From an uncultured Ignavibacteria bacterium (GTDB taxonomy: Bacteria > Bacteroidota > Ignavibacteria > Kapaibacteriales > UBA2268), in NCBI GenBank assembly GCA_903862655.1, contig CAIOZA010000139.1, forward strand, positions 79,311 to 117,967: a stretch of 38,657 nt of DNA, written 5' to 3'. Shown one piece after another: positions 9,225 through 35,723 of the stretch. The notes under the pieces were generated by a model, which did not search any database, was not told the origin of the DNA, and was given only the letters and a program-made list of their open reading frames with translations. Within the stretch, counting starts at the first letter, position 1; every line of letters begins with the position of its first letter. Made by a program: the position numbers and the translations under genes.

Positions 9225-9244
9225 ACCACACTAATATTTAACAC

Positions 9245-9283
9245 AAGAGGCTGTCCCACTTATGAGACAGCCTCTTGATTTTT
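9245..9283. terminator. Bidirectional terminator between glyA and the C25-like gene
   Basis: Arms AAGAGGCTGTC (9245-9255) and GACAGCCTCTT (9266-9276) are perfect 11-bp complements around a 10-nt loop. They are followed by GATTTTT on the plus strand. It sits 20 bp after the glyA stop and also downstream of the convergent minus-strand gene. The core is one of three identical 29-bp copies in the window. Confidence 0.88.
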
Positions 9284-9397
9284 ATGTCATTCCTGTGAAT
9301 ACAGGAATCTTTTCTACATTACAACTTCACAAATTTACTTACTTTATCCCCAATCCTCACAAAATACATGCCCGGAGCCAAGCCCGAGACATCGATT
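9250..9397 (-). repeat. 148-bp duplicated 3' module (copy 1): end of T9SS sorting domain, stop and hairpins
   Basis: Aligns without gaps to 10971-11118. The non-coding part (terminator core plus the hairpin ATTCCTGTgaatACAGGAAT) is identical. About ten differences, all in or immediately around the last codons, occur in the remaining 75 bp that encode the GLAPGMYFVRIGD...SKF(V/I)K end of the sorting domain. It contains a second hairpin directly after the stop codon. Confidence 0.85.
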
Positions 9398-10695
9398 TGT
9401 ATTGTAGGGGCGGGTTCAAAACCCGCCCGAACTAATGACACGATTTGTCCAAAGACATTCATTATCCTTATCTCGCCTGTAAGGGCGGGTTCAGAACCCG
9501 CCCCTACGGATATTTCTATGAAATCTGAAGCAGGATTTGGGAAAATAATCACTTTAGACATATCCACAGGTTCAATTGCAGATGCTGTTCCAAAGAATGG
9601 ATTTTTAAGAGCAGGATCACCAAGTAGGCAATATCTTTGGTAGTCGGAGTTAATTTCTTGTTTGAAGCTTTTAAAGAATGCTTCCCCAATAGTCGGTTCT
9701 CTGTTAATAATGCAATTATTGAAGAAATTCCCAATTAAATTCACACTACTGTATGAAAACACTATACTGGATGGAGCTATGGTGGCAACTGCACCGCTCT
9801 GCCCTTTCATGAGAATTTCTTCAATTATTCCCTTTTTTGAAGGATTATCATAACTTTGAGTGCTTGCGATAGTAGATAATATAAACGGTTTGTTTGTTAA
9901 TTGTAATGAAGCAATCTCATCAGCATAAATTGAATTTTTATAGCACCATAGTTGTGAATTTGAACGAACAAAGTTAAAAACCATAGTTGAGCCGGAATTG
10001 AGAGCAGAGAAGTAATCATCCTTTGTTCCATAATTCTTTGAGCTGTCATTCAATGATATCTGTTTTACTCTATAGCCACAAAGGTATTTAGTTGCAATAC
10101 TATTTGACGCTGTTTCAAAATAATCCCCGTCATCCGGCTTATAATCGGAAAAAAATGTGCCGTCATATATATTATTTAAACTATTGAAGTTATCTTCAAA
10201 ATTCATAGTTTTTGTTAGGAATTCTTCGAGCTCTAATTGAGTTCTTGCTGGGATTCTTCCGATCATCATGTTTGGTGCGGAACTCTCATCTTTCATAACA
10301 TAGTATTGCTCAATTGAGATAGTATCCTCGCCCAAGATGTTCAAATCCGATTTTACTCTATAAGTTGGAATGTAATTCACCCCACCGGCAATCAATACAT
10401 ATCGGGGTTTTGGCGATTGCCAGTTATCGTAAGCATATTTAAGAAAATCTTTGATGTTTTCCTGATTAGTAAGTGAATCTTTAAATTCTGTATAAATGTC
10501 ATTTAGATCACAAGCTAATATCTTTAAGCCTTTTGCTTGTCTCCATTCAATAAAGCTTTTAAGTGATTGCTTGAATTCATTAGGATAAATAATAATGTAA
10601 TCTGCTCGGTTGTTGGGTGATTTTAACTGAGCGAACAGAGGTGTTGTGACAATTATTGCTGTTAATAAGACAAAAATCAAATTGCGGGTTTTCAT
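9319..10695 (-). CDS. Gingipain-like (peptidase C25 fold) secreted protein with T9SS sorting domain, catalytic residues apparently lost
   Basis: A secreted protein of about 458 residues. Starting at the ATG at 10695 (MKTRNLIFVLLTAIIVTTPLFA) gives a clean signal peptide and a GGAG six bases upstream; the ATG at 10707 would add four residues. The body follows the C25 pattern: ADYIIIYPNEF, RQAKGLKI, YVLIAGGVNYIPTY, MIGRIPARTQLELE and a closing LLGDPALKNPF. Where active C25 enzymes have GHG and a catalytic Cys, this protein reads FNFVRSNSQLW and LSTIASTQSYD, so His is replaced (Arg) and Cys is replaced (Ser). It may be a binding protein or a dead paralogue of PorU/gingipain-type enzymes. The C-terminal sorting domain (FPNPASDFIEIS ... 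FVRIGDKVSKFVKL) directs T9SS export and carries two palindromic inserts, VGAGSEPALT and VRAGFEPAPT. Confidence 0.85.
   Translation of the reverse strand: MKTRNLIFVLLTAIIVTTPLFAQLKSPNNRADYIIIYPNEFKQSLKSFIEWRQAKGLKILACDLNDIYTEFKDSLTNQENIKDFLKYAYDNWQSPKPRYVLIAGGVNYIPTYRVKSDLNILGEDTISIEQYYVMKDESSAPNMMIGRIPARTQLELEEFLTKTMNFEDNFNSLNNIYDGTFFSDYKPDDGDYFETASNSIATKYLCGYRVKQISLNDSSKNYGTKDDYFSALNSGSTMVFNFVRSNSQLWCYKNSIYADEIASLQLTNKPFILSTIASTQSYDNPSKKGIIEEILMKGQSGAVATIAPSSIVFSYSSVNLIGNFFNNCIINREPTIGEAFFKSFKQEINSDYQRYCLLGDPALKNPFFGTASAIEPVDMSKVIIFPNPASDFIEISVGAGSEPALTGEIRIMNVFGQIVSLVRAGFEPAPTIQIDVSGLAPGMYFVRIGDKVSKFVKL
9408..9428. repeat. Palindromic element inside a coding region (distal copy)
   Basis: GGGCGGGTT caa AACCCGCCC has perfect 9-bp arms. 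It is translated in frame as part of VRAGFEPAPT between VFGQIVSL and IQIDVSGL of the sorting domain of the C25-like gene. It is the same element as at 9479-9507, in the same reading frame. Confidence 0.85.
9479..9507. repeat. Palindromic element inside a coding region (proximal copy)
   Basis: GTA a GGGCGGGTT cag AACCCGCCC c TAC has 9-bp perfect inner arms plus GTA/TAC outer arms. It is translated in frame as VGAGSEPALT directly after the FIEIS strand of the sorting domain. It shares the pattern V-x-A-G-x-E-P-A-x-T with the distal copy. Confidence 0.87.
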
Positions 10696-10701
10696 AAAAT
10701 A

Positions 10702-10705
10702 CTCC
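10702..10705 (-). promoter_or_regulatory. Ribosome binding site that decides the start of the C25-like gene
   Basis: GGAG on the minus strand lies six bases before the ATG at 10695. The in-frame ATG at 10707 overlaps this site and has no comparable purine run at the right distance, so the downstream ATG is preferred. Confidence 0.6.
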
Positions 10706-10707
10706 AT

Positions 10708-10960
10708 ATCAGGTTAAACAAAACTGTTAAAGATAAAGGGTATTTATGGTCATTGATTCCTGTTGTTGGTTTAAATGAAATTCTTTTTGTGCTATTTAAT
10801 CAGAGTTTAAAATATGCTTTTATTTTATTACTTTTTAAAAAAATTTCGTTGTGTAGATGATAATTTCAAAAAAATCAAAAAGAGTCTGGAATAAATGCAC
10901 AATTAACTATACGGTGTTAAGAAAATTTGACATTATTTCTAAAAGATCGGATTTCCTTAA
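10708..10960. other. AT-rich spacer upstream of the C25-like gene
   Basis: A non-coding stretch between the start of the C25-like gene and the terminator of the next minus-strand gene. It is rich in A and T runs (for example around 10830-10890) and presumably holds the C25-like gene promoter. I see no repeat, hairpin or convincing promoter pair in it. Confidence 0.5.
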
Positions 10961-10995
10961 ATAAAAAAAAGCTGTCCCACTTATGAGACAGCCTC
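10961..10995 (-). terminator. Terminator of the Asp-box T9SS gene
   Basis: GCTGTC (10971-10976) pairs with GACAGC (10987-10992). On the minus strand the hairpin is followed by an eight-base U run, making an intrinsic terminator for the gene ending at 11040. The 29-bp core is identical to those at 9250 and 12688. Confidence 0.88.
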
Positions 10996-11118
10996 TTGAT
11001 TTTTATGTCATTCCTGTGAATACAGGAATCTTTTCTACATTACATCTTAATAAATTTACTCACTCTATCCCCAATCCGCACAAAATACATACCGGGAGCC
11101 AAACCGGAGACATCGATT
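10971..11118 (-). repeat. 148-bp duplicated 3' module (copy 2)
   Basis: The partner of 9250-9397, colinear with no gaps and about 93 percent identical by eye. It covers the last codons of the sorting domain, the stop codon at 11040-11042, the ATTCCTGTgaatACAGGAAT hairpin and the terminator core. Confidence 0.85.
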
Positions 11119-12356
11119 CTCTGTCCCCCGCTGGCGGGGGTGTCTGCGGAGCAGACGGGGGTGGACATGGTTTGTCCATACACATCATATATCTTCACTT
11201 CGCTTTGGTCGGACACAGCAAGCTGTGCCCCTACGGATATTTCTATATAATCTGTTGCTGGGTTGGGGGAAACTGTTAAATCACTCATTGGATTATTTTC
11301 TTCAACATTTACAACAGGAGCTGAAGATCGGTATATTTTACCTTCATATTTAAAAGAATTTGCACTTGCTAAAAATATATATCCCTTGCTGCTTATCAGC
11401 ATATTTCGAAGATCAATAGAATCAGGTATATTATAATTCATATTAATCCAAGTCAAGCCATTATCGATTGACTTTAAGAATCTGTATGTCCTGGGCTCAG
11501 TTGGATAAAACTTTACGACATAAATATTATCTTGAGCATCAGTCTTTATTAAAAAACTAGAAAAACATTCTCCTTCATAAATAAAACCCTGCCATGAGTT
11601 ACCATTGTCTGTTGAAAAGATTGTGCTATCGTAATAAGTTGAGGCAAAAATCCAGTCTTTTGAATTTATAGATATATCAAAAACATCTGGACCCCAGGGG
11701 TTATGAAGTGTATCCGATAATACTAATCTAAAAGTGTCTTTTTTTTCATCATATGTAGAAATACTAGATGTACAAGATATAATAAATAAATTATTATTAT
11801 TACAATCGATCGTACCACGGTTAAACTGACCAAACCAAATATCATTTGTTAATCCTAGTTTTGTCCAGTTTTCACCTTTATTAGTTGATTTAATTACACC
11901 ATAAATATCAGTAATTGCATATACATTACCTTCCTTTGAAAAAGTAAAACCATAAACTCCTCCTTCAAATCGATAATCTTTAGATAAACCATTGTTAATA
12001 TTTTTCCAAGTATTACCATAATCATCAGATCGTAAGATTGTTCCATAATTCGTGTCCAGGGGTGGATTGTTTAAACCTAAATATATAATGTCATCTTTAT
12101 CAATTTTCATATTTATATGATATTGATCGTTTAGATTTAAGCCTATGTATTGCCAAGTTTCACCATTATCTGTAGATTGATAAATTCCTGGAATAGCACC
12201 TGTACAGGTATAATACAGATTACCTTTAGAATCCTCCGCCATAGAGGTTATAAACTGGTCTTTCGAACTTATTTCTTTCCAAAAATCTTCTGCATAAATG
12301 TGTTGTTGCATTAAACATATTAAAATAAACAGTGTGAAGATGATGTGCTTTTTCAT
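11040..12356 (-). CDS. Secreted Asp-box (BNR) repeat protein with T9SS sorting domain
   Basis: A 438-residue protein with signal peptide MKKHIIFTLFILICLMQQHIYA. Five Asp-box motifs lie across about residues 40-320: STDNGETW, SDDYGNTW, STNKGENW, STDNGNSW and SIDNGLTW, indicating a beta-propeller of the sortilin/BNR type. A T9SS type A sorting domain (about 358-438: SPNPATDYIEIS, VYGQ, IDVSGLAPGMYFVRIGDRVSKFIKM) marks it for export across the outer membrane. Asp-boxes are structural and do not by themselves predict sialidase activity; no catalytic set is visible. The sorting domain contains extra residues encoded by palindromic elements (AQLAVSDQ and TPVCSADTPASGG). It resembles the partial gene at the left edge. 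Confidence 0.9.
   Translation of the reverse strand: MKKHIIFTLFILICLMQQHIYAEDFWKEISSKDQFITSMAEDSKGNLYYTCTGAIPGIYQSTDNGETWQYIGLNLNDQYHINMKIDKDDIIYLGLNNPPLDTNYGTILRSDDYGNTWKNINNGLSKDYRFEGGVYGFTFSKEGNVYAITDIYGVIKSTNKGENWTKLGLTNDIWFGQFNRGTIDCNNNNLFIISCTSSISTYDEKKDTFRLVLSDTLHNPWGPDVFDISINSKDWIFASTYYDSTIFSTDNGNSWQGFIYEGECFSSFLIKTDAQDNIYVVKFYPTEPRTYRFLKSIDNGLTWINMNYNIPDSIDLRNMLISSKGYIFLASANSFKYEGKIYRSSAPVVNVEENNPMSDLTVSPNPATDYIEISVGAQLAVSDQSEVKIYDVYGQTMSTPVCSADTPASGGQRIDVSGLAPGMYFVRIGDRVSKFIKM
11125..11156. repeat. Two adjacent palindromes inside the sorting-domain coding region
   Basis: CCCCCGC tg GCGGGGG (11125-11140) is followed by GTCTGC gga GCAGAC (11142-11156). Both are perfect inverted repeats, translated in frame as the VCSADTPASGG segment between VYGQTMSTP and QRIDVSGL. 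This is the same loop that holds VRAGFEPAPT in the C25-like protein. Confidence 0.85.
11211..11230. repeat. Palindromic element inside the sorting-domain coding region
   Basis: GGACACAG caag CTGTGCCC has 8-bp arms with one mismatch. It is translated as part of GAQLAVSD directly after the YIEIS strand, the same loop that holds VGAGSEPALT in the C25-like protein. The flanking CCCCTACGGATATTTCTAT is shared with that gene. Confidence 0.82.
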
Positions 12357-25062: not shown

Positions 25063-28000
25063 TTATTTTATAACTGAGAATCCATAAACTACCATTTCGT
25101 TTCCGGCTGACACTGCTAGAACATAAGAACCAGATGCCATCATTTTGTTGAATGGTACTCTGATGTCATGATCTCCTGATGCCATAACCTGATTTGATGC
25201 AAAGTCAATTACTTTCTGACCACTTTCGTTGAAGATGGAGATTGTAACTGGCATTTCTTCTGCTGTTGTTAATTTGAATGTTATGTTATCAACTGCTGGG
25301 TTTGGATACAAACCTTCAACAATCAAGCTTCCGTCTGTTGATGTCTCATACAAGCCTGGAATTGCTTCCTTGGATGCTGACATTCTGTTTAGAGGATTGT
25401 TGCTTGTTCCTGCATTTGTATTGAATGTAGGATCTGTTGTTCCATAATATTCAAAGATTTTGAAGTGGTATCTCTGGTATGAAGCCATGCCTGTGGCAAT
25501 TGAATTCGCACCTGTTCCACGGTAAATAACCTGTGAACAGCCAATTGAAGTACTTACACCAGCGGCTGTTCTTTGTGCTGCTGTTGGGTTCAAAGGATTA
25601 TAGCTTGTGTTTGCTGTGTAAACAGTACCATCTGTTGGCGATACTGGATAGTTTGCAGCTGAAGGATCTTTGCGAATTACGCAAATTCTTCCGTCGCCAT
25701 TACCATTTGTCCACTGTAGAGGAATCTGGCCAGGTATAACGTTACCCCAAACAATACTTCTTGCCTGGGTTGAAGGATATACACGTAGTTTAGCATTGTT
25801 TGACACTGCTGATGTTACTGGTGAACAAGGTGTATAACCAGTTAGATGGTATAGATACCCGTTCATTGCAGCTGTAAGACTACTTACTGTTAACGATGTA
25901 GATGTTGCTCCGCCTACATCATTCCAGCTACCACCAGCATCAGTACTTATTTGCCACTGATATGTTGAAACGTCACCAATAGCAGCTGTGAAGGTTACTG
26001 AACCGCCATCTGCTGCTTTCTGATCAGTTGGCTGAACAGTAACAGTTGGTGCTTCATAAAGGGCAAGAACAGCAAATGTTGCCTGTGCTGTGCAGCCACC
26101 TGGGTTAGCTGTAACTGTTACAGTATAGGACACTCCACCGGCTAGACCTGTTCTGTTCTGTGTTGTTACTGCACCATCTGACCAAGCATAGGTATAAGTT
26201 GTTCCACCACTTGGAGTAGTAGTAATAGTACCGTTAGTTAAATTACATGTTTCATTCGTAAATGTACCTGTGATTGATGCTGGTGCTGATGAATTCACTG
26301 TGCATGATGCTGTTGCAGTACATCCGGCATTATCTGTTACGGTTACTGAATAAGCTCCTGGAGCTAGAGTATTACCAGCTGCAGGATCAGAAGTAGCAGA
26401 AGTATATCCACCAGGACCGCTCCATGAGTAAGTAACATAAGGAGCAGTACCGCCAGCTTTTGCCAATGTAATGTGACCATTGTCCAGAGCACAAGTTGTG
26501 GCTGTGGGGGTTGCTGTCAATGAAAGAGGAGCTACAGGCTGTGAGATCACAAATGAATGGATACAATTTAAGCAAAGTCCTGCGTTGTCTTTTACTGTTA
26601 CGATATATGTACCTGCAACTAAACCTGATCTGGTTGCCGCTGTAGATAAACCATCACTCCATACATAAGTATAAGCTCCACCTGTTCCACCACCTGGTGC
26701 GGAGACGGCTACTGCACCGGTAGCAGCACCATAGCATGCGACATTAGTTTGAGCATAAGCAGCTGTAATTGCTGATGCTGGTTCTGTAATCGTAAATAAA
26801 TGTGTTGTATTAAGGCAGATACCTGATACATCTTTAACTGTAACAGTATAACCACCAGCGATTAAACCTGTTCTTGTAGCAATTGCAGGACCTGCATCAC
26901 TCCATAAATAAGTGTATGGGCCACCGTTACCGCCACCCTGGGCTGTTACAGAGGCTGATCCGGTTGTTCCACCGAAGCAATTAACGTTTGTCTGTGCATA
27001 AGATGCTGTGATTGCAGCGGCTGGCTGTGTAACTGTAAATGTGTGTGTACAATTTCCACATAAAAGACCTGAATCATAAACAGTTACTGTATATATGCCT
27101 GCTGTTAAGCCTGCTCTGGTTGCTGTTGTTGGGCCGTCTGACCAAACATAACTATATGCAGCGCCTGTTCCACCACCTGGTGCGGATACTGCGGCTGCAC
27201 CATCTGAACTACCAAAGCAAGTTGCATTTGTTTGTGCATAAGATGCTGTGATTGCTGATGCTGGCTGTGTAATAACAAAAGTATGAACACAGTTTAGGCA
27301 AAGCCCTGTGCCATCTTTTACGGTTACAGTATAATTACCAGCTGTTAAACCACCTCTGGCTGCGGCTGTTGATAAACCGTCACTCCATACATAAGTATAA
27401 GTAGCACCTGTTCCGCCACCTGGAGCAGAAACTATTGCTGTACCATTGGCACCGCCAAAGCAGGATACGTTTGTTGGCGTAAATACTGCTGTAATTGCTG
27501 AAGCTGGTTCAGTGATTGTAAATACATGAGTAACTGTGCCACATAAACCGGCTACATCACGAATTGTTACTGTATAAGGACTTGCTGCAGCTGTTAAACC
27601 TGATCTTGTATTTGTTCCCAATCCAATATCACTCCATGTGTATGAGAAAGGAGCACCCATTCCACCGGAAACACCTGAAATTGTTATTGTTCCGTCGGCA
27701 CCACCAAAGCAAGATACATTAGTTTGTGCATAAGTTGCTGTAATTGCTGAAGCTGGCTGAGATACTGTATAAGAAGCTGTAACGGCACACGTGGCATTTT
27801 TGGTAACAGTCAGTAAATATGTGCCAGCTGCTAATGATGAAATGTTCTGTGTAGCGTATGGACCACCAGGACCAGTCCATGAGTAAGCATAAGCACCTGC
27901 TGCAGGACCGCCTGTTGGTGCTGTTGAAATTGCACCTGTAGAAAGACCGAAACAAACAACATTTGTGATTGTTGGGTTAATTGCAACTATTGCTGGCTCT

Positions 28001-29748
28001 GTTAATGTCCAAGGACCACCAACAACTGAACATGCAGTTGATGCAGGAGCTGCATCTCTTACAGTTACACTGTAAGGACCACCAGCAACGGTTAAACCTG
28101 TTGCTGTTGCAGTTGTCTGACCATTTGACCATAGATATGAATATGTTCCGTAGCCACCTGTTGGTGCTAATGCAATCTGACCATCAGATCCAGCAAAACA
28201 CGTAACATTTGTTACTGTTGGTGCTGGTATTGCAAGAGCTGCTGGTTGAGTAATAGCGATTGAGTAGGAGACTGAGCATGCAAGCGGTCCATCCCATACT
28301 GTTACAACATAGGGACTACCTCCTGAATTTAAACCTGTTCTGGTTGGACCAGTAGGTCCACCTGCCCATGCATAAGTATATGTTCCACCACCACCACCTG
28401 CTGGTGCAGAAATTGTAATTGTTCCGTCAGAAGCACCGTTACAAGTAACATTGGTTGAGGCTGTTGTTGCAGAAACTACTGTTGGTTCTGTAACTGTATA
28501 AGAAAAAGTAGCTGTATTAGGAGGAGCACATGCGTCTGTTACAGTTAACAAATAAACTCCGCCACTGAGACCTGTTTGATCTTCGGCTGCAACTACAACA
28601 CCGGTACCTGACCAGTTGTATGTGTATGCACCAATACCACCGGCAGCTGTAATATTAATAGCACCATTAGCTGCTCCATTACAAGGATTTACATTTGTAA
28701 TTGAAGCAGGGGCAGTAATTGCTGCTGGCAAATAAATTGTATAAGCTGATCTTGTCTGGCTTTCTTTTCTGCCTGCAACATTTGCTGTATTATAAGTAGA
28801 AACATAATATGTTGTAGTTGAAGTCAACAAACCTGTAGTCCATGACGGATCACCTGTTGGTGTAACATTTAAAGGAACGCCACCTGTTGGTGCAGAATAA
28901 AAGTTAAATGCACAAGTTACTCCACAGTTAAGCTGATCATTCGTAGGTGTAATTGTTGTGGCTGTATTTGAACAAATTGTAACATCACCGCCTGTATTAG
29001 GAGCGGATGGATAGGTATTGATAGCTGTAGCATCAATTACCCAACCACTATAAACATTACCTACTCTTGTTCTTATTTTCCATGTATAAATATCATTTTC
29101 AAAAATATTCATATCGATAGTTTCTGATGTAGCGGCACCGGATGTCTCTTCATAGGGATCATAACCTTCTACGAGATCTGTTGGATCGAAAGGTGAAGTT
29201 CCGGAAACCTGAATATCATAGCCACTTGCGCCTACTACACTATTCCAATTAACAGTGAAAAACTTATCACCAATATTGTTTGTTGCATTTAGTGTAGGTG
29301 CAGAAGGTGTCAAATAAACCTCGCGAGGGTTATTTGTTGAAGCTGATGTCAGGTATTGAGTTGTAGTACCAGAACCATTGAATTCATAGACTTTGAATTG
29401 CCAATGTGTATCGCCTGTAAGATTAGTTACAGCTACTGTTCTTCCTGTACCTCTATAAATAACTCTTTCTGCAGCAGTAATAGTTGTAGGTGTAGTACCA
29501 TAATTTCCTGTTGCAGTTGTATAATCTGTTCCATTTGACGGACTTGTCCATACATTAGCAGAATATGGTCTGGCGACGATGATACGTCTTGTTCCATCTC
29601 CACGTGTACAGTTGACAGTCACATTGGTAGGGCCAACACTACTGAATGTAATGTTGTAGGCTTGTGTACCCGGTGTAGCAGCATAAAGCTCTGCTGCGAA
29701 AGCCACGAGCAATGCTATAAGAACCGAGAAACGTAGTAGTTTTTTCAT
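25063..29748 (-). CDS. Large secreted SprB-repeat adhesin-like protein with T9SS sorting domain
   Basis: A 1561-residue exported protein. Order: signal peptide (KKLLRFSVLIALLVAFAAELYA); an Fn3-like module (about 24-135, RIIVARPYSANVWTSPSNG...VIYRGTG...FKVYEFNG); an Fn3 domain (about 145-250, SAPTLNATNNIGDKFFTVNW); a Cys-containing region to ~335; eleven SprB-type repeats of ~80 residues (345-1225), each with TNVxCFGGxDG, GG...YTYxWSDG, GLxAGxYxVTVxD and a C; an Ig-like domain (1231-1320); a second Fn3-like module (1326-1456); and a T9SS sorting domain (YPNPAVDNITF...GSYVLAVSAGNEMVVYGFSVIK). Repeats 5-9 are nearly identical, pointing to recent duplication. SprB itself is a gliding adhesin; no gliding genes are here. 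AAGGAG seven bases upstream fixes the start. Confidence 0.93.
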   Translation of the reverse strand: MKKLLRFSVLIALLVAFAAELYAATPGTQAYNITFSSVGPTNVTVNCTRGDGTRRIIVARPYSANVWTSPSNGTDYTTATGNYGTTPTTITAAERVIYRGTGRTVAVTNLTGDTHWQFKVYEFNGSGTTTQYLTSASTNNPREVYLTPSAPTLNATNNIGDKFFTVNWNSVVGASGYDIQVSGTSPFDPTDLVEGYDPYEETSGAATSETIDMNIFENDIYTWKIRTRVGNVYSGWVIDATAINTYPSAPNTGGDVTICSNTATTITPTNDQLNCGVTCAFNFYSAPTGGVPLNVTPTGDPSWTTGLLTSTTTYYVSTYNTANVAGRKESQTRSAYTIYLPAAITAPASITNVNPCNGAANGAINITAAGGIGAYTYNWSGTGVVVAAEDQTGLSGGVYLLTVTDACAPPNTATFSYTVTEPTVVSATTASTNVTCNGASDGTITISAPAGGGGGTYTYAWAGGPTGPTRTGLNSGGSPYVVTVWDGPLACSVSYSIAITQPAALAIPAPTVTNVTCFAGSDGQIALAPTGGYGTYSYLWSNGQTTATATGLTVAGGPYSVTVRDAAPASTACSVVGGPWTLTEPAIVAINPTITNVVCFGLSTGAISTAPTGGPAAGAYAYSWTGPGGPYATQNISSLAAGTYLLTVTKNATCAVTASYTVSQPASAITATYAQTNVSCFGGADGTITISGVSGGMGAPFSYTWSDIGLGTNTRSGLTAAASPYTVTIRDVAGLCGTVTHVFTITEPASAITAVFTPTNVSCFGGANGTAIVSAPGGGTGATYTYVWSDGLSTAAARGGLTAGNYTVTVKDGTGLCLNCVHTFVITQPASAITASYAQTNATCFGSSDGAAAVSAPGGGTGAAYSYVWSDGPTTATRAGLTAGIYTVTVYDSGLLCGNCTHTFTVTQPAAAITASYAQTNVNCFGGTTGSASVTAQGGGNGGPYTYLWSDAGPAIATRTGLIAGGYTVTVKDVSGICLNTTHLFTITEPASAITAAYAQTNVACYGAATGAVAVSAPGGGTGGAYTYVWSDGLSTAATRSGLVAGTYIVTVKDNAGLCLNCIHSFVISQPVAPLSLTATPTATTCALDNGHITLAKAGGTAPYVTYSWSGPGGYTSATSDPAAGNTLAPGAYSVTVTDNAGCTATASCTVNSSAPASITGTFTNETCNLTNGTITTTPSGGTTYTYAWSDGAVTTQNRTGLAGGVSYTVTVTANPGGCTAQATFAVLALYEAPTVTVQPTDQKAADGGSVTFTAAIGDVSTYQWQISTDAGGSWNDVGGATSTSLTVSSLTAAMNGYLYHLTGYTPCSPVTSAVSNNAKLRVYPSTQARSIVWGNVIPGQIPLQWTNGNGDGRICVIRKDPSAANYPVSPTDGTVYTANTSYNPLNPTAAQRTAAGVSTSIGCSQVIYRGTGANSIATGMASYQRYHFKIFEYYGTTDPTFNTNAGTSNNPLNRMSASKEAIPGLYETSTDGSLIVEGLYPNPAVDNITFKLTTAEEMPVTISIFNESGQKVIDFASNQVMASGDHDIRVPFNKMMASGSYVLAVSAGNEMVVYGFSVIK

Positions 29749-31511: not shown

Positions 31512-34500
31512 TTAGAATGATCTCCAACCACCACTTATATATAAGAATGGATGTACTGCACCAGCTGCGATAGAATATCCTGCTGCTGTGTGAGCAATAC
31601 CTGCTGCATTGTATAAGTAAAGGATTTGTCCGTTAACACCTGCTGGCATATTTGTAATATCAACAGTTATTGTTAATACGTTATATGAACCCCAATTACC
31701 AGCCAAAGTTAAATTAGCGACTCCGGAAGCATCTCCTGTATTGAGAACCATTTTACCAGATGCAAGATAAAGTGCAGTGGCATTGTCTGAGAACTCTGGG
31801 TTACGTAATTCTAAAGATGCACCTGCGCCTGAGTTAGTCTGTGAAATGAAGACTGCAGGTTGAGCAGTATTTCTAGCATTAACAGTAGAGAATTCTGCAA
31901 CCTGACCAGCTGATGAAGCGGATGATGCATAAATTGCACGACCGATTGTTGATGGATCCAACATTGTAACCTGGATACCATTAACATTATTTGGACCATT
32001 CTGCTGAATCTTAAGAGCAGCAACTTCTTTTGAATTGTTAATAACAATACCGTCCTGAACATTTAATGCGTAATCTGCATCTGTGTTTGTCCAAGCACCT
32101 GGGAAGCTGAAACCAACTTGTTTGTTGAATGTATGTGAACCTGTCCATGCATAAGCTGCAGTAAGATCAAGATCTGCAGGAAGAATAGTTCCGTTAAGAA
32201 TCTTGTCTGTTGTTACAGCATCAGCAGCTAATAAACCATTTGTGATGGCTAAAAGAGCTACATCGGCTGTTGCAATTGTACCATCAAGAATTTTTGCTGA
32301 TGTTACTGCACCGTCGGCAAGATCAGCTGCAACGATTGTTGCATCAAGGATTGTTGTTGATGTTACTGAACCAGCTGCAAGATCTGCATTAATAATAGTT
32401 CCATCAAGAATTTTTCCTGTTGTAACTGCGTCATCGGCTAATAAACCGTTTGTGATTGCTAATAAAGCGACATCAGCTGTAGCAATAGTAGCATCAAGAA
32501 TTGTTGCTGATGAAACTGAACCAACTGCAAGATCTGCATTGATGATTGTACCATCAAGAATCTTTACTGAAGTAACAGCGTCGTTTACAATTGTTCTTGT
32601 AGAAACTGAAAGGTTATCTAATTTAGGTTCAGTAACATTAAGATCTACAATCTTTGATGTTAGAACTGAGTTAGCAGCCAGTTTAGTATCAGTTACTGAA
32701 CCGTCAACGATTTTCAAAGTTGTAACAGCACCGTCAGCTAATAAAGCATTTGTGATTGCTAAGTTAGCAACGTCAGCAGTAGCAATTGTACCGTCAAGAA
32801 TTTTGTCTGTTGTAACAGCGTCAGCAGCTAATTTAGAGTTATCGACTGCAAGATTAGCAATCTTAGCAGTTGTAACTGCAAGATTTTGAATTTTTGCAGT
32901 TGAAATTGCATTATCAGCAACAAATAACTGGTTAGAGCCGTTTATGTCAATAGTTGTTACATCAGTGTTAACATCAACAGTTGCAGGAGCAGAACCATTA
33001 AATGTAAATGGAGCAATACCTGAACCATCAGTTAAATCGTTATCTAAACGCTCGACATAAATGAAATCACCATTTAATTTAATTGTATAGTCATCAACAT
33101 TTACATCAAGAGCACCTGTTCCAACGTTTTTAACTAAACCAAGACCGGCAACATCATCATTAATCTTAGCGGCAGTTACTGCTAAAGCATTAATTTTTTC
33201 TGTTGTTACATTAAGGTTAAGAATTTTGTTTGTTGTAACAGCATCATCAGCAAGATCAGCTGTGAGGATTGTACCATCAAAAATCTTGTCAGTTGTAACT
33301 GCATTGGCAGCGATCTTTGCGTTTGTAACGTTAAGATCAGCAATTTTTGTAGTTGTTACGTTAAGATCAAGAATTTTTGCAGTTGTAACATTTGCATCTG
33401 CAATTTTAACTGTTGTAACAGCAGCATCAGCAATTTTACCAGTGGATACGGCAAGATTAGCAATATCAATTGTCTGAACATCACCGTCAAGAATCTTTGC
33501 AGATGTAACAGCACCGTCAGCAATGTCAGCTGCGATAATAGTACCGTCAGCAATTTTATCAGTAGTAACTGCATTTGCAGCTAATTTAGCGTTTGTAACG
33601 TTGAGATCAGCAATCTTAGCTGTTGTTACGTTAAGATCAGCAATCTTAGTAGTTGTTACGTTAAGATCAAGAATCTTGATAGTTGTAACAGCATCGTCAG
33701 CTAATTTACCGTTTGTAACGTTAAGATCAGCGATTTTAGCAGTTGTAACTGCAAGAGGTGCAATATCAATTGTCTGAACATCAAGATCAAGAATCTTTGC
33801 AGATGTAACAGCACCGTCAGCTATTTTAGGATTTGTAACAGCTTCATCATTGATTTTTGTAGTTGTAACATTTAAGTCAAGAATGTCAACTGTTTTAACT
33901 TCGCCATCTTTAATTTTTAAAGAAGTGATAGCATCATTTGCAATCTTTTCTGTTGTTACATTGAGATCAAGAATTTTAACAGTTGTAACTGCTGCATCAG
34001 CGATCTTTCCTGTTGTTACGTTCAAATCAGCGATTTTTGGAGTTGTAACTGCTGCATCATTGATTTTTGCAGTTGTAACGTTTAAGTCAGCAATTTTTGT
34101 TGTTATTACGTTTGCATCAAGAATTTTAATTGATGTAACAGCATTATCAGCAAGCTTGCCAGTTGTTACGTTAAGATCAGCGATCTTTGGAGTTGTAACG
34201 GCTGCATCAGCGATTTTAACTGTAGTAACAGCGGCATCAGCGATCTTAATAGTTGTGACTGCTGAATTTGCAATATTAAGAGTATTGACTAGGCTAGCTA
34301 CCCAAGTACCAGTACCCGGTGCACCATTGAACCAAAGAACAGATCCGCTTCCATCTGGGAGGTAAGCTGCGTCATCACGAATTTTCAAAGGAGTTACAGT
34401 AATACCAGCATTGTAACCATTGCCAACAAGTGGGCCAACAGTTTTGAACTGAGCTGGTGTCCAACCTAAACCATTGTACATATATAAATCACCAATAACT

Positions 34501-35723
34501 GAACCTGGTGCAGTTAATGGTTGATTGCGCCATGCACCAACTGTCAATGCTTTGAAAGAACCAGTCACGTCACCACCTGCATAAGCGGCTCTCCAGTCGT
34601 TTGTGATCTGACTGTAAGTATAAACCTGACCATCTAATGTAGGCTGGTTGAACAAGTTGATGTTCCATAATTTATTAACTGTGTTATTATTATAAGCACC
34701 GTTAACATCACCGAACATAGTTGTTGCAACCCATTGGTTGGTTACGGAATTGTACATGTAAACCTGACCAGAAGTTGGGGCAGTAACATTTAGAGGAATA
34801 TTACGGAATCCGCCAACCTGTGGATTTCTGTATGTACCATAAAGATCGCCACCAGCTGGTGTACCAATATGAACGAAGTAATCATGAACTTCTTGACCAA
34901 GATCTTCGTTAAGAATTGTTCCGTTCAAAATTTTGTCAGTTGTAACAGCGTCGGGACCGATTTTACCGTTTGTAACGGCAAGATCATTGATCTTTGCTGT
35001 TGTAACGTTCAAATCAGCAAGTTTAAGAGTAGTAACAGCACCATTGAAGATACGATCTGTTTTAACTGCTCCTGGAGCAATCAAAGGATCAGGATATGTA
35101 CCTGTAAGGTCACCACTTGCAGGACCGCAAGGAGAGACACAAATATTTGGTGATAATTTATCTTGTGTAATGCTGCCAGGAGGAATATTACGAACAACTG
35201 CTGTAGGATTTAATGTCGGGTTTGGATATGTACCGGCAAGATCACCAGCGGCTGGTCCCCAAGGATTAGCAGAAACGTTAGGAGCTAATTTTGCTTGAGT
35301 AACTGCACCATCAACGATGTTGAGAGCAACAGTAGCTGTATCGGATGTAACAGCCTGAATAGCATTCATAGCTGAAGGAACCGATGAAAGAGGTGTTCTA
35401 GCGAAAGGCTGACCACTACCAACTTTAACTTCCAACCAAAGTTGTTTGTTGAAAGGAACATTGATAGGTGTTCTGCTACCTAGATAAACATTAACGAATC
35501 CACCAACTGAAGAAACATCCTGTGTTTCTGTCCAAAGTGGTGAACCACCATTTTCCTGTGCATAGATCTGGAAGGTTGCTACATAGGAACCATCCTTCAA
35601 CGGACTGTTTGTGTTATCGCGCATACTTGCTTGGTAATTGAATACCTTGGGAATCTGTGCGAAAGCATTATCGGCGCAAAAGACCATTAACGCGATTAAA
35701 CTTAGAAGCAAAAACTTCTTCAT
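31512..35723 (-). CDS. Giant secreted decapeptide-repeat protein (tail-fibre-like)
   Basis: A 1403-residue exported protein with signal peptide MKKFLLLSLIALMVFCADNAFA, a GAGGAG ribosome binding site, and an N-terminal domain common in Bacteroidota surface proteins (PKVFNYQASMRDNTNSPLKDG...SVPSAMNA, to ~120). Several GPASGDLTGTYPDPLI-type motifs, known from phage tail-fibre-like proteins, follow. The bulk is decapeptide repeats of the form D-x-x-V-T-T-x-K-I-x: about six near residues 216-275, about 37 in residues ~478-855 and about 25 in ~931-1185. A C-terminal domain of about 215 residues (WTGSHTFNKQVGF to ISGGWRSF) contains no canonical T9SS sorting domain. The periodicity predicts a beta-solenoid or fibre. 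No enzymatic motif; adhesion or surface-layer role is inferred. Confidence 0.9.
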   Translation of the reverse strand: MKKFLLLSLIALMVFCADNAFAQIPKVFNYQASMRDNTNSPLKDGSYVATFQIYAQENGGSPLWTETQDVSSVGGFVNVYLGSRTPINVPFNKQLWLEVKVGSGQPFARTPLSSVPSAMNAIQAVTSDTATVALNIVDGAVTQAKLAPNVSANPWGPAAGDLAGTYPNPTLNPTAVVRNIPPGSITQDKLSPNICVSPCGPASGDLTGTYPDPLIAPGAVKTDRIFNGAVTTLKLADLNVTTAKINDLAVTNGKIGPDAVTTDKILNGTILNEDLGQEVHDYFVHIGTPAGGDLYGTYRNPQVGGFRNIPLNVTAPTSGQVYMYNSVTNQWVATTMFGDVNGAYNNNTVNKLWNINLFNQPTLDGQVYTYSQITNDWRAAYAGGDVTGSFKALTVGAWRNQPLTAPGSVIGDLYMYNGLGWTPAQFKTVGPLVGNGYNAGITVTPLKIRDDAAYLPDGSGSVLWFNGAPGTGTWVASLVNTLNIANSAVTTIKIADAAVTTVKIADAAVTTPKIADLNVTTGKLADNAVTSIKILDANVITTKIADLNVTTAKINDAAVTTPKIADLNVTTGKIADAAVTTVKILDLNVTTEKIANDAITSLKIKDGEVKTVDILDLNVTTTKINDEAVTNPKIADGAVTSAKILDLDVQTIDIAPLAVTTAKIADLNVTNGKLADDAVTTIKILDLNVTTTKIADLNVTTAKIADLNVTNAKLAANAVTTDKIADGTIIAADIADGAVTSAKILDGDVQTIDIANLAVSTGKIADAAVTTVKIADANVTTAKILDLNVTTTKIADLNVTNAKIAANAVTTDKIFDGTILTADLADDAVTTNKILNLNVTTEKINALAVTAAKINDDVAGLGLVKNVGTGALDVNVDDYTIKLNGDFIYVERLDNDLTDGSGIAPFTFNGSAPATVDVNTDVTTIDINGSNQLFVADNAISTAKIQNLAVTTAKIANLAVDNSKLAADAVTTDKILDGTIATADVANLAITNALLADGAVTTLKIVDGSVTDTKLAANSVLTSKIVDLNVTEPKLDNLSVSTRTIVNDAVTSVKILDGTIINADLAVGSVSSATILDATIATADVALLAITNGLLADDAVTTGKILDGTIINADLAAGSVTSTTILDATIVAADLADGAVTSAKILDGTIATADVALLAITNGLLAADAVTTDKILNGTILPADLDLTAAYAWTGSHTFNKQVGFSFPGAWTNTDADYALNVQDGIVINNSKEVAALKIQQNGPNNVNGIQVTMLDPSTIGRAIYASSASSAGQVAEFSTVNARNTAQPAVFISQTNSGAGASLELRNPEFSDNATALYLASGKMVLNTGDASGVANLTLAGNWGSYNVLTITVDITNMPAGVNGQILYLYNAAGIAHTAAGYSIAAGAVHPFLYISGGWRSF
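32168..32930 (-). repeat. 30-bp coding tandem repeats, distal block (about 25 units)
   Basis: Degenerate 30-bp units encode decapeptides such as DGTIINADLA, DGAVTSAKIL and LLAITNGLLA. Longer composite units recur (for example DGTIATADVALLAITNGLLA twice), showing higher-order duplications of several decapeptides at once. Confidence 0.85.
33160..34290 (-). repeat. 30-bp coding tandem repeats, main block (about 37 units)
   Basis: Back-to-back 30-bp units encode DLNVTTAKIA, DAAVTTVKIA, DGAVTSAKIL and near variants with almost no interruption. Many neighbours are identical over most of the 30 bp (for example around 33600-33680), so recent unit amplification or slippage is likely. Confidence 0.9.
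34900..35075 (-). repeat. 30-bp coding tandem repeats, proximal block (about 6 units)
   Basis: Six decapeptide units (NGAVTTLKLA, DLNVTTAKIN, DLAVTNGKIG and so on) lie between the GDLTGTYPDP motif and the next GGDLYGTYRNP motif, separate from the two larger blocks. Confidence 0.8.

Follow-up and report, generated by a model that had tools for sequence, protein, structure and literature searches.

Two neighbouring genes of an uncultured Ignavibacteria bacterium raise the question of how palindromic DNA of differing sequence came to be translated in frame at the same two positions of a secretion signal. The genes lie in a stretch of 38,657 nucleotides, here called the window (GenBank assembly GCA_903862655.1, contig CAIOZA010000139.1, positions 79,311 to 117,967). 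They are adjacent, both on the minus strand and different in their gene bodies, one being like C25-family peptidases and the other a BNR/Asp-box gene. Each ends in a type A sorting domain of the type IX secretion system (T9SS), here abbreviated CTD for C-terminal domain. In both CTDs site 1 follows the FIEIS/YIEIS strand and site 2 follows FGQIVS/YGQTMS. We put the probability at about three in four that the inserts with a GTAG foot are repetitive extragenic palindromes (REPs) of the type that belongs to subclass 2.4 of the REP-associated tyrosine transposases (RAYTs), that they settled in frame in two CTD loops, and that CTD copying and loop replacement followed.

Both sorting domains are C-terminal and exceed the curated cut-offs of PF18962 (27 bits) and TIGR04183 (23 bits), with 43.8 and 35 bits for the C25-like gene and 43.5 and 37.6 bits for the BNR gene. 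An initial annotation of the window had placed palindromes inside both domains, and we found every element where it had been placed. The peptide proposed for the C25-like gene, V-x-A-G-x-E-P-A-x-T, is what both elements there encode (Table 1). These two had been described as one 30-nt palindrome present twice. They do belong to one family, our class b, but they span 25-29 nt plus flank, share no fixed 30-mer and are oppositely oriented. As had also been claimed, the BNR gene carries palindromes of other sequence at the same two positions, a GTAG-footed one at site 1 and a double one at site 2. The two CTDs have nearly identical ends and share 69 identical bp past the stop codon, yet the palindromes in both loops differ.

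The observation is confirmed and is far larger than the window. In the 4.07-Mb genome PF18962 gave 304 candidates, of which 150 were scored; the stretches around all 150 were fetched and the domains translated. Forty-nine of these CTDs form a subfamily ending in VRIGD(R/K)VxKF(V/I)K or similar, and 35 of the 49 contain at least one hairpin (59 hairpins in total, score 8 or more). When the synonymous codons of the subfamily were permuted 20 times, the mean was 4.9 hairpins and the maximum 8. The other 101 CTDs had 11 hairpins against a permuted mean of 13.2, none beyond chance. Hairpin centres in the subfamily fall into two zones, domain residues 15-24 and 40-49, which bears out the insert positions that the initial annotation had proposed to map by such a survey. 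Strong hairpins (score 10 or more) reach 23.2 per 10 kb in the subfamily CTDs and 0.71 in other open reading frame (ORF) sequence, the latter an overestimate in that two of its 25 hairpins are CTDs and some lie in spurious frames. There were none in 22 kb of other CTDs, and 10.0 per 10 kb in intergenic DNA, where terminators are counted too. A later CTD profile search gave 93 matches at E 1e-8 or better and so revealed more CTDs of this kind than the PF18962 listing; part of them were fetched.

Searched through the whole genome, the class b pattern GGGCGGGTTN{0,8}AACCCGCCC recurs at 18 places. Twelve of these are in CTD matches, one is beside a RAYT-like gene and five lie some 20 bp from a class c-like palindrome, and non-coding copies exist. 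A second family, class a, is found in CTDs at 15 of its 16 places and just ahead of another gene at the remaining one. The looser pattern GTAGGGN{8,30}CCCTAC has five of eight places in CTDs and two more in apparent CTD remnants. For CCCTCYCC..GGRGAGGG four of ten are in CTD matches, one is in an apparent CTD broken by a contig end and five are elsewhere. Over five element patterns, 37 of 59 distinct places are in CTD matches (one place fits two patterns), and the remainder are mostly without a long open frame. Reversed-pattern controls (0 places against 18 for class b, 16 for class a, 8 for class c and 10 for CCCTCYCC..GGRGAGGG; 3 against 8 for the looser pattern), together with the codon permutation, reject a chance origin. 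An assembly artefact or contamination is unlikely, the elements being on many contigs and in other genera. At several places outside intact CTD genes (C19:89757/89796, C93:6355/6396 and C95:53332/53372) class c and class b palindromes form tandems with a spacing of about 20 bp, which resemble a composite REP in two parts.

The same elements are used by CTDs, by non-coding DNA and by RAYT-like genes. Among 14 Y1_Tnp matches in the genome, two have GTAG-footed REP-type palindromes nearby, L031 on contig C6 and L033 on contig C22. One RAYT-like gene has a class b copy about 20 bp from its full-length match. Class b also reads in frame within L031 and L033, directly after the HuH motif, as MPNHLHLILIIENSI-RAGLESAPT-.. 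and MPNHIHCIIILEA-VSAGSEPAPT-.., in more or less perfect form. A hairpin between HuH and W was present in 18 of 21 readable RAYT-like ORFs from 30 loci, our own two included; the one counted for L031 is A/T-rich, and its class b copy is imperfect. The L031 protein found matches in 27 of the 54 genomes of the bacterial family. A match to TnpArep 4er8 had E 0.0066.

The RAYT-like genes of relatives use the palindromes of CTDs as well. That of G160 contains class a, read VGANGRSPL, which agrees with most CTD copies at 27 of 28 bases. Those of G304 and G344 contain the family FEL as GTAGGGGTTCAAAATTTTGAACCCCTAC, read VGVQNFEPL, again with 27 of 28 bases as in the CTDs of our genome. The gene of G336 has GTAGAGACACGGC.., read VETRHAVSLQ, which resembles an element in G298 CTDs, and that of G341 has GGGGCAGGTTC... 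In L205, from a genome of another family in the same phylum, class b is in frame in what reads like a RAYT. The decoration of RAYTs with their own REPs is in this way tied to a second host protein. Two loci are of interest in themselves. L033 (G000:C22:44468-45068) has REPs around and inside it and lies tail to tail with an adjoining T9SS sorting-domain gene. In the RAYT-like ORF L329 (G307) the loop after HuH is swollen by repeats (SPQQIPINKYH..), and HuH and W are 142 residues apart, compared with 53-54 in our own two.

According to Quentin et al. (2018, PMC6006769), RAYT subclass 2.4 is abundant in Cyanobacteria and Bacteroidetes, and its REPs have a GTAG foot, often as a double foot GT[AG]G..C[TC]AC, with G-C pairs at the stem base. 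They are described there near RAYT genes and in frame within them, between HuH and Y. Our GTAG-footed elements are alike in foot, double foot, stem base and placement near and within RAYT genes. They differ in that the subclass 2.4 REPs of that account are at home in intergenic DNA and the transposase gene, whereas the main home of two families here is two CTD loops in about 50 genes; unlike there, non-GTAG palindromes occupy the same loops too. REPs are named as extragenic, yet here most copies of two families (classes a and b) are read as protein, at two fixed loops of a single domain that dozens of secreted proteins carry.

Intragenic REPs have been described before. According to Di Nocera et al. 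(2013, PMC3733652), GTAG and CGTC REPs are translated within real proteins, perhaps in linkers or loops, a REP pair stands at about the same site in recB of two Xanthomonas, and the Rickettsia palindromic elements RPE-4 and RPE-6 are intragenic CGTC repeats. Our elements share the in-frame translation in real proteins. The hosts in that account are unrelated genes, many of them for DNA synthesis or repair, whereas here one domain is hit at two loops by many families in several genera. The likeness to Rickettsia that the initial annotation had drawn holds in that palindromic repeats are read in frame within genes. It fails in that the Rickettsia elements, as far as the sources seen describe them, have another sequence (CGTC, against GTAG in the commonest site-1 families), unrelated host genes against one domain, and in RPE-1 a greater length. 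The loop elements of the window are of GTAG or other type, and GTCATTCC..GGAATC in a G298 CTD resembles CGTC-type (RPE-4/6) sequence and goes no further. Because the GTAG-footed elements match the subclass 2.4 REPs, their nearest known relatives are intragenic REPs rather than strict Rickettsia elements. This is a known kind in a new form, in which two loops of one secretion signal are colonised by many families in several genera. In the literature searched, with subscription papers mostly outside its coverage, we found no account of REPs inside T9SS sorting domains; three papers that include both terms deal, judged by title and opening of the abstract, with other matters.

Table 1. Genes, loop elements and 3' flanks in the window (window coordinates).
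Feature	Position	Strand	Details
C25-family peptidase gene with T9SS type A sorting domain	9319..10707	minus	Peptidase_C25 181.1 bits (Pfam)
BNR/Asp-box gene with T9SS type A sorting domain	11040..12356	minus	Sortilin-Vps10 34.3 bits
Site-1 element, C25-like CTD	9479..9507	minus	class b, GTAG foot and hairpin GTAAGGGCGGGTTCAGAACCCGCCCCTAC, read VGAGSEPALT
Site-2 element, C25-like CTD	9404..9428	plus (opposite to gene)	class b, GTAG+GGGCGGGTTCAAAACCCGCCC, read VRAGFEPAPT
Site-1 element, BNR CTD	11211..11234	minus	GGACACAGCAAGCTGTGCCCCTAC; class c (ACAGC core), GTAG foot and GGGCACAGC..GCTGTGTCC, read VGAQLAVSDQ
Site-2 double palindrome, BNR CTD	11125..11156	minus	CCCCCGCTGGCGGGGG (11125-11140) and GTCTGCGGAGCAGAC (11142-11156), read TPVCSADTPASGGQ
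3' flank after stop codon of C25-like gene	9250..9318	minus	69 bp, 100% identical to BNR flank
Matching 69-bp 3' flank after BNR gene	10971..11039	minus	same alignment as C25-like flank

We distinguished seven palindrome families at each site. Sixty CTDs of this genome were collected, of which two could not be split at the loops, and labels were assigned to the remaining 58 by pattern, five of them corrected by hand. Site 1 is occupied by class a (GTAGGGGCGAACGGCCGTTCGCCCTTAC) in 23 CTDs, class e (CCCCCTCTTGAGAGGGGG) in 9, class c (GTAGGGRCACRGC..GCYGTGTCC) in 6, class b in 4, f in 3, g in 2 and h in 1. At site 2 we found ASR in 11, b in 8, STS in 8, IHE (GTAGGGGCAATTCATGAATTGCCCCTAC and variants) in 8, SLR in 5, FEL (GTAGGGGTTCAAAATCTTGAACCCCTAC) in 4 and VCS in 4. 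By hand-checked patterns, single copies of which may lack the foot, families a, b, c and h account for a GTAG foot at 34 of 48 filled sites 1, and b, FEL and IHE at 20 of 48 filled sites 2. The combinations are partly free: class a pairs with six site-2 families, and class e mostly with STS. One pair of CTDs, C24_103933 and C47_2978, is 84% identical over the domain with the same site 2, and has class a in one and class c in the other at site 1, within the same bounds. Peptides of different families are alike in little except length. Annotators should be warned that VGAGSEPAPT-like peptides derive from repeats.

Other genera have palindromes at these loops as well. The CTD profile found matches in 53 of the 54 genomes of the bacterial family. 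We read mostly the best-scoring listed matches and their neighbours, a biased sample of 44 rows that came to 42 distinct CTDs after removal of two duplicates (L267 and L270 yielded no CTD; our own L250 and L252, and others, were left out). Of the 42, 32 had hairpins, 48 altogether and mostly in the two loops, whereas codon permutation left 7.6 CTDs with hairpins and 8.4 hairpins. Some of the families are absent from the CTDs of our genome, for example ATCAACCATAGGGTTAACCCTATGGTTGAT (G320), ATCAACCCTACGGTTAACCGTAGGGTTGAT (G335) and GTAGAGACACAGCATGCTGTGTCTCTAC (G298); in other genera other palindrome families behave likewise. A close relative of ATCAACCATAGGGTTAACCCTATGGTTGAT/ATCAACCCTACGGTTAACCGTAGGGTTGAT does sit past the stop codon of the CTD gene C95_43673 in our genome. 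The identical 28-mer GTAGGGGCAATTCATGAATTGCCCCTAC is at site 2 in CTDs of our genome and G304, at site 1 in G296 and G304, and outside CTDs in G323, where it lies in a RAYT match and also in DNA that lacks a long open frame. The double-foot pattern GTAGGGGN{12,16}CCCCTAC was found in 22 of the 54 family genomes, with 6 places in our own; the reversed control gave 4 places in 3 genomes.

Class b matched 9 of 296 sampled genomes of the phylum, our own included; the other 8 have a single place apiece, and the 4 same-family genomes within that sample have none. Among distant named genomes (27 loci), 24 of 25 readable CTDs had no hairpin and the 25th had one A/T-rich hairpin. Distant members of PF18962/TIGR04183 have the same host domain, and those read have short turns at the two sites. 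The encoded residues thus do not come with the domain in the distant genomes read, and the element recurs within this genome, both of which the initial annotation had named as decisive for its reading.

An AlphaFold2 model built on 26 sequences has seven strands, a mean predicted local distance difference test score (pLDDT) of 81 and a predicted template modelling score (pTM) of 0.70. The inserts centre on predicted loops 26-33 and 54-58, which have the lowest confidence apart from the N-terminal tail; loops had been expected at these points. Sequence relatives in the PDB include Por/T9SS sorting domains, and Foldseek matches were weak (best E 3.5e-3; RemA CTD 8gl6_D, E 0.031). These findings are consistent with the following route. 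GTAG-footed, often double-foot (GTAG..CTAC) REPs of RAYT (TnpA-REP) subclass 2.4 type would enter two turn loops in frame, moved by RAYT activity. An element is readable in two of three frames as far as its foot is concerned, because only one frame meets TAG. Inserted REPs would then be translated in functionally neutral loops, a filled loop exceeding an empty one by 4-10 residues. A CTD lineage in which both loops are filled would probably next be copied, as DNA cassettes that at times include 3' flank, onto the 3' ends of numerous unrelated genes; meanwhile the palindrome in each loop would repeatedly be replaced by others, GTAG-type or not. The filled loops amount to an experiment of nature in how much insertion a secretion signal tolerates, and show selfish-looking DNA turning into ordinary protein sequence.

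The lengths of the loops bear on how the filled CTDs spread. Of the 49 CTDs taken for this count, 4 could not be split. In the remaining 45, site 1 measures 21-24 nt in 6 and 39-45 nt in 39 (exactly 39 nt in 37); those 6 have a site 2 of 30 nt, and the 39 others one of 42-60 nt. Domains lacking inserts are therefore shorter, as had been noted, and both loops are long in 39, both short in 6, and mixed in none. By family label the 58 CTDs have 48 with both sites filled, 10 with neither and 0 with one (43, 11 and 4 before hand correction). By hairpin only (score 7 or more) the figures are 34, 13 and 11, the single-loop cases arising because some palindromes have decayed. Whether filling is all-or-none hence varies with the measure. 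Besides the window pair, other CTD gene pairs have some 30 to 140 bp of 3' flank in common, and in one pair of closely related paralogues the common stretch is 220 bp. Taken with the all-or-none loops, the shared flanks imply that CTDs probably also spread as copied cassettes, and suggest that CTDs travel between genes together with 3' flank. Part of the shared flank consists of dispersed non-coding repeats (a ATTCCTGTA..ACAGGAAT palindrome is also behind C78_5232), and other shared stretches match at unequal distances from the stop. Because some of these stretches are dispersed repeats, cassette copying is suggested rather than demonstrated.

Exchange of CTDs is suggested by two further comparisons. 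We searched 54 genomes for M1 peptidase orthologues, matched 46, fetched 30 loci and read 29 (one truncated by a contig end, another masked; the ORF of our own genome is not among them). Seven of the 29 had any hairpin at the C-terminal domain, and 5 of these 7 were not of the palindrome-type CTD, which was found in G298 and G296 only. The M1 orthologues of the sister species G298 and G299 (L283 and L284, 72% identical, one genus) have quite different CTDs, which points to CTD exchange and no clean insertion. Similarly, three C36 paralogues with empty loops have bodies 70-73% identical to the filled C95_43673, and the CTD core of C95_43673 is nearer to some other filled CTDs than to those of its body paralogues, again indicating exchange. 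It thus seems that CTDs pass from gene to gene in the form of 3' cassettes. On a CTD tree (135 columns, four long-branch rows left out) the labels change 23 times at site 1, where shuffling gives 29.0 on average (1 of 200 shuffles as low), and 30 times at site 2, where it gives 37.4 (0 of 200 as low). The family labels are thus somewhat clustered, and the tree does not prove recurrent landing within this genome; it is too weak to count insertions because 135 columns are too few.

Several observations weigh against the proposed route. The best curated model for L031 and L033 is NF047646 (REP-associated tyrosine transposase), at 63.4 and 54.1 bits and below its cut-off of 80, and the RAYT-like ORF on C22 has a stop within its match. 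Strict class c lies outside CTD matches at 6 of 8 places (2 of 8 inside), and 11 of 14 double-foot loci of relatives have no open frame above 100 aa, the others being 1 CTD, 1 RAYT and 1 near an open-frame start. Seven of the 14 site families (e, f and g; ASR, STS, SLR and VCS) would not be explained by RAYT because the GTAG foot is absent. All-or-none loop length fits inheritance better than independent landings, one origin is rejected for neither class b nor class c by the approximately unbiased test (p-AU 0.29 and 0.07), and movement or empty/filled polymorphism between close strains was not seen. The repeated landing put forward in the initial annotation is accordingly supported in part: the many palindrome families, the two loops and the other genera speak for it, but the loop lengths, the shared 3' flanks and the weak tree do not. 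Our data suggest that the copies are probably not all separate landings and that CTD cassettes were copied with turnover of the loops.

Some of these points would suit descent without any mobility, in which duplication of a single ancestral CTD that had two palindromes was accompanied by diversification of those palindromes through mutation, template switching or gene conversion. Loop filling in both sites or neither, the common 3' flanks, the near restriction of class a to CTDs and the test of single origins all fit such a history. However, identical or nearly identical cores also turn up in non-coding DNA and within RAYT-like genes, both in this genus and in others, which point mutation does not yield. 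Moreover, class a stems, in 322 pair-cells, had 293 consensus pairs, 17 broken, 11 G-T and 1 one-sided, with 0 compensatory changes, and cores therefore seem not to drift from one palindrome to another. We consider duplication alone unlikely.

The same count bears on whether the hairpins are selected for a role close to the 3' end, in the mRNA or the DNA (stability, pausing or recombination). The recurrence of two positions across several genera and the near-perfect palindromes of many copies would be expected of such a function. The absence of compensatory changes within class a gives no sign of selection holding the stems, and a conserved RNA structure is not supported. In addition, 14 of the 49 subfamily CTDs have no hairpin, the other 101 have none beyond chance, and the few M1 readings with a hairpin mostly have another type of CTD, making a 3'-end function very improbable. 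Selection on the peptides, for example as a glycosylation or recognition motif with the palindrome incidental, can practically be set aside, in that the constant total length of site 1 would agree with it but the families' peptides have little beyond length in common, most palindromes are lost on synonymous permutation, identical DNA is also in non-coding regions, and the same peptides in non-palindromic DNA were not seen among the 25 distant CTDs.

If subclass 2.4 REPs did settle in these loops, the two CTD loops and the post-HuH loop of the RAYT might form a standing target, at which the transposases would swap REP cores and so diversify an exposed part of a secretion signal in frame. By analogy this would be a small-scale counterpart of diversity-generating systems, kept by the host for varying what the T9SS or the cell surface sees; we regard it as a long shot.

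The 3' flanks of the window pair have features of their own. Both hold a GTCATTCCTGTGAATACAGGAATC palindrome (window 9286-9309 and 11007-11030), which we take to resemble CGTC-type REPs. It is followed by a terminator-like hairpin AGAGGCTGTCCC..GGGACAGCCTCT (window 9244-9277), complete behind the C25-like gene. Elsewhere in the window two long proteins are rich in repeats. A 1403-aa protein (31512-35723) consists mostly of degenerate repeats of type AVTTAKIADLNVTT. A 1561-aa protein (25063-29748), presumably SprB-like, has many TNVSCFGGADGTI-type repeats and an apparent C-terminal sorting domain, for which no strong palindrome was listed.

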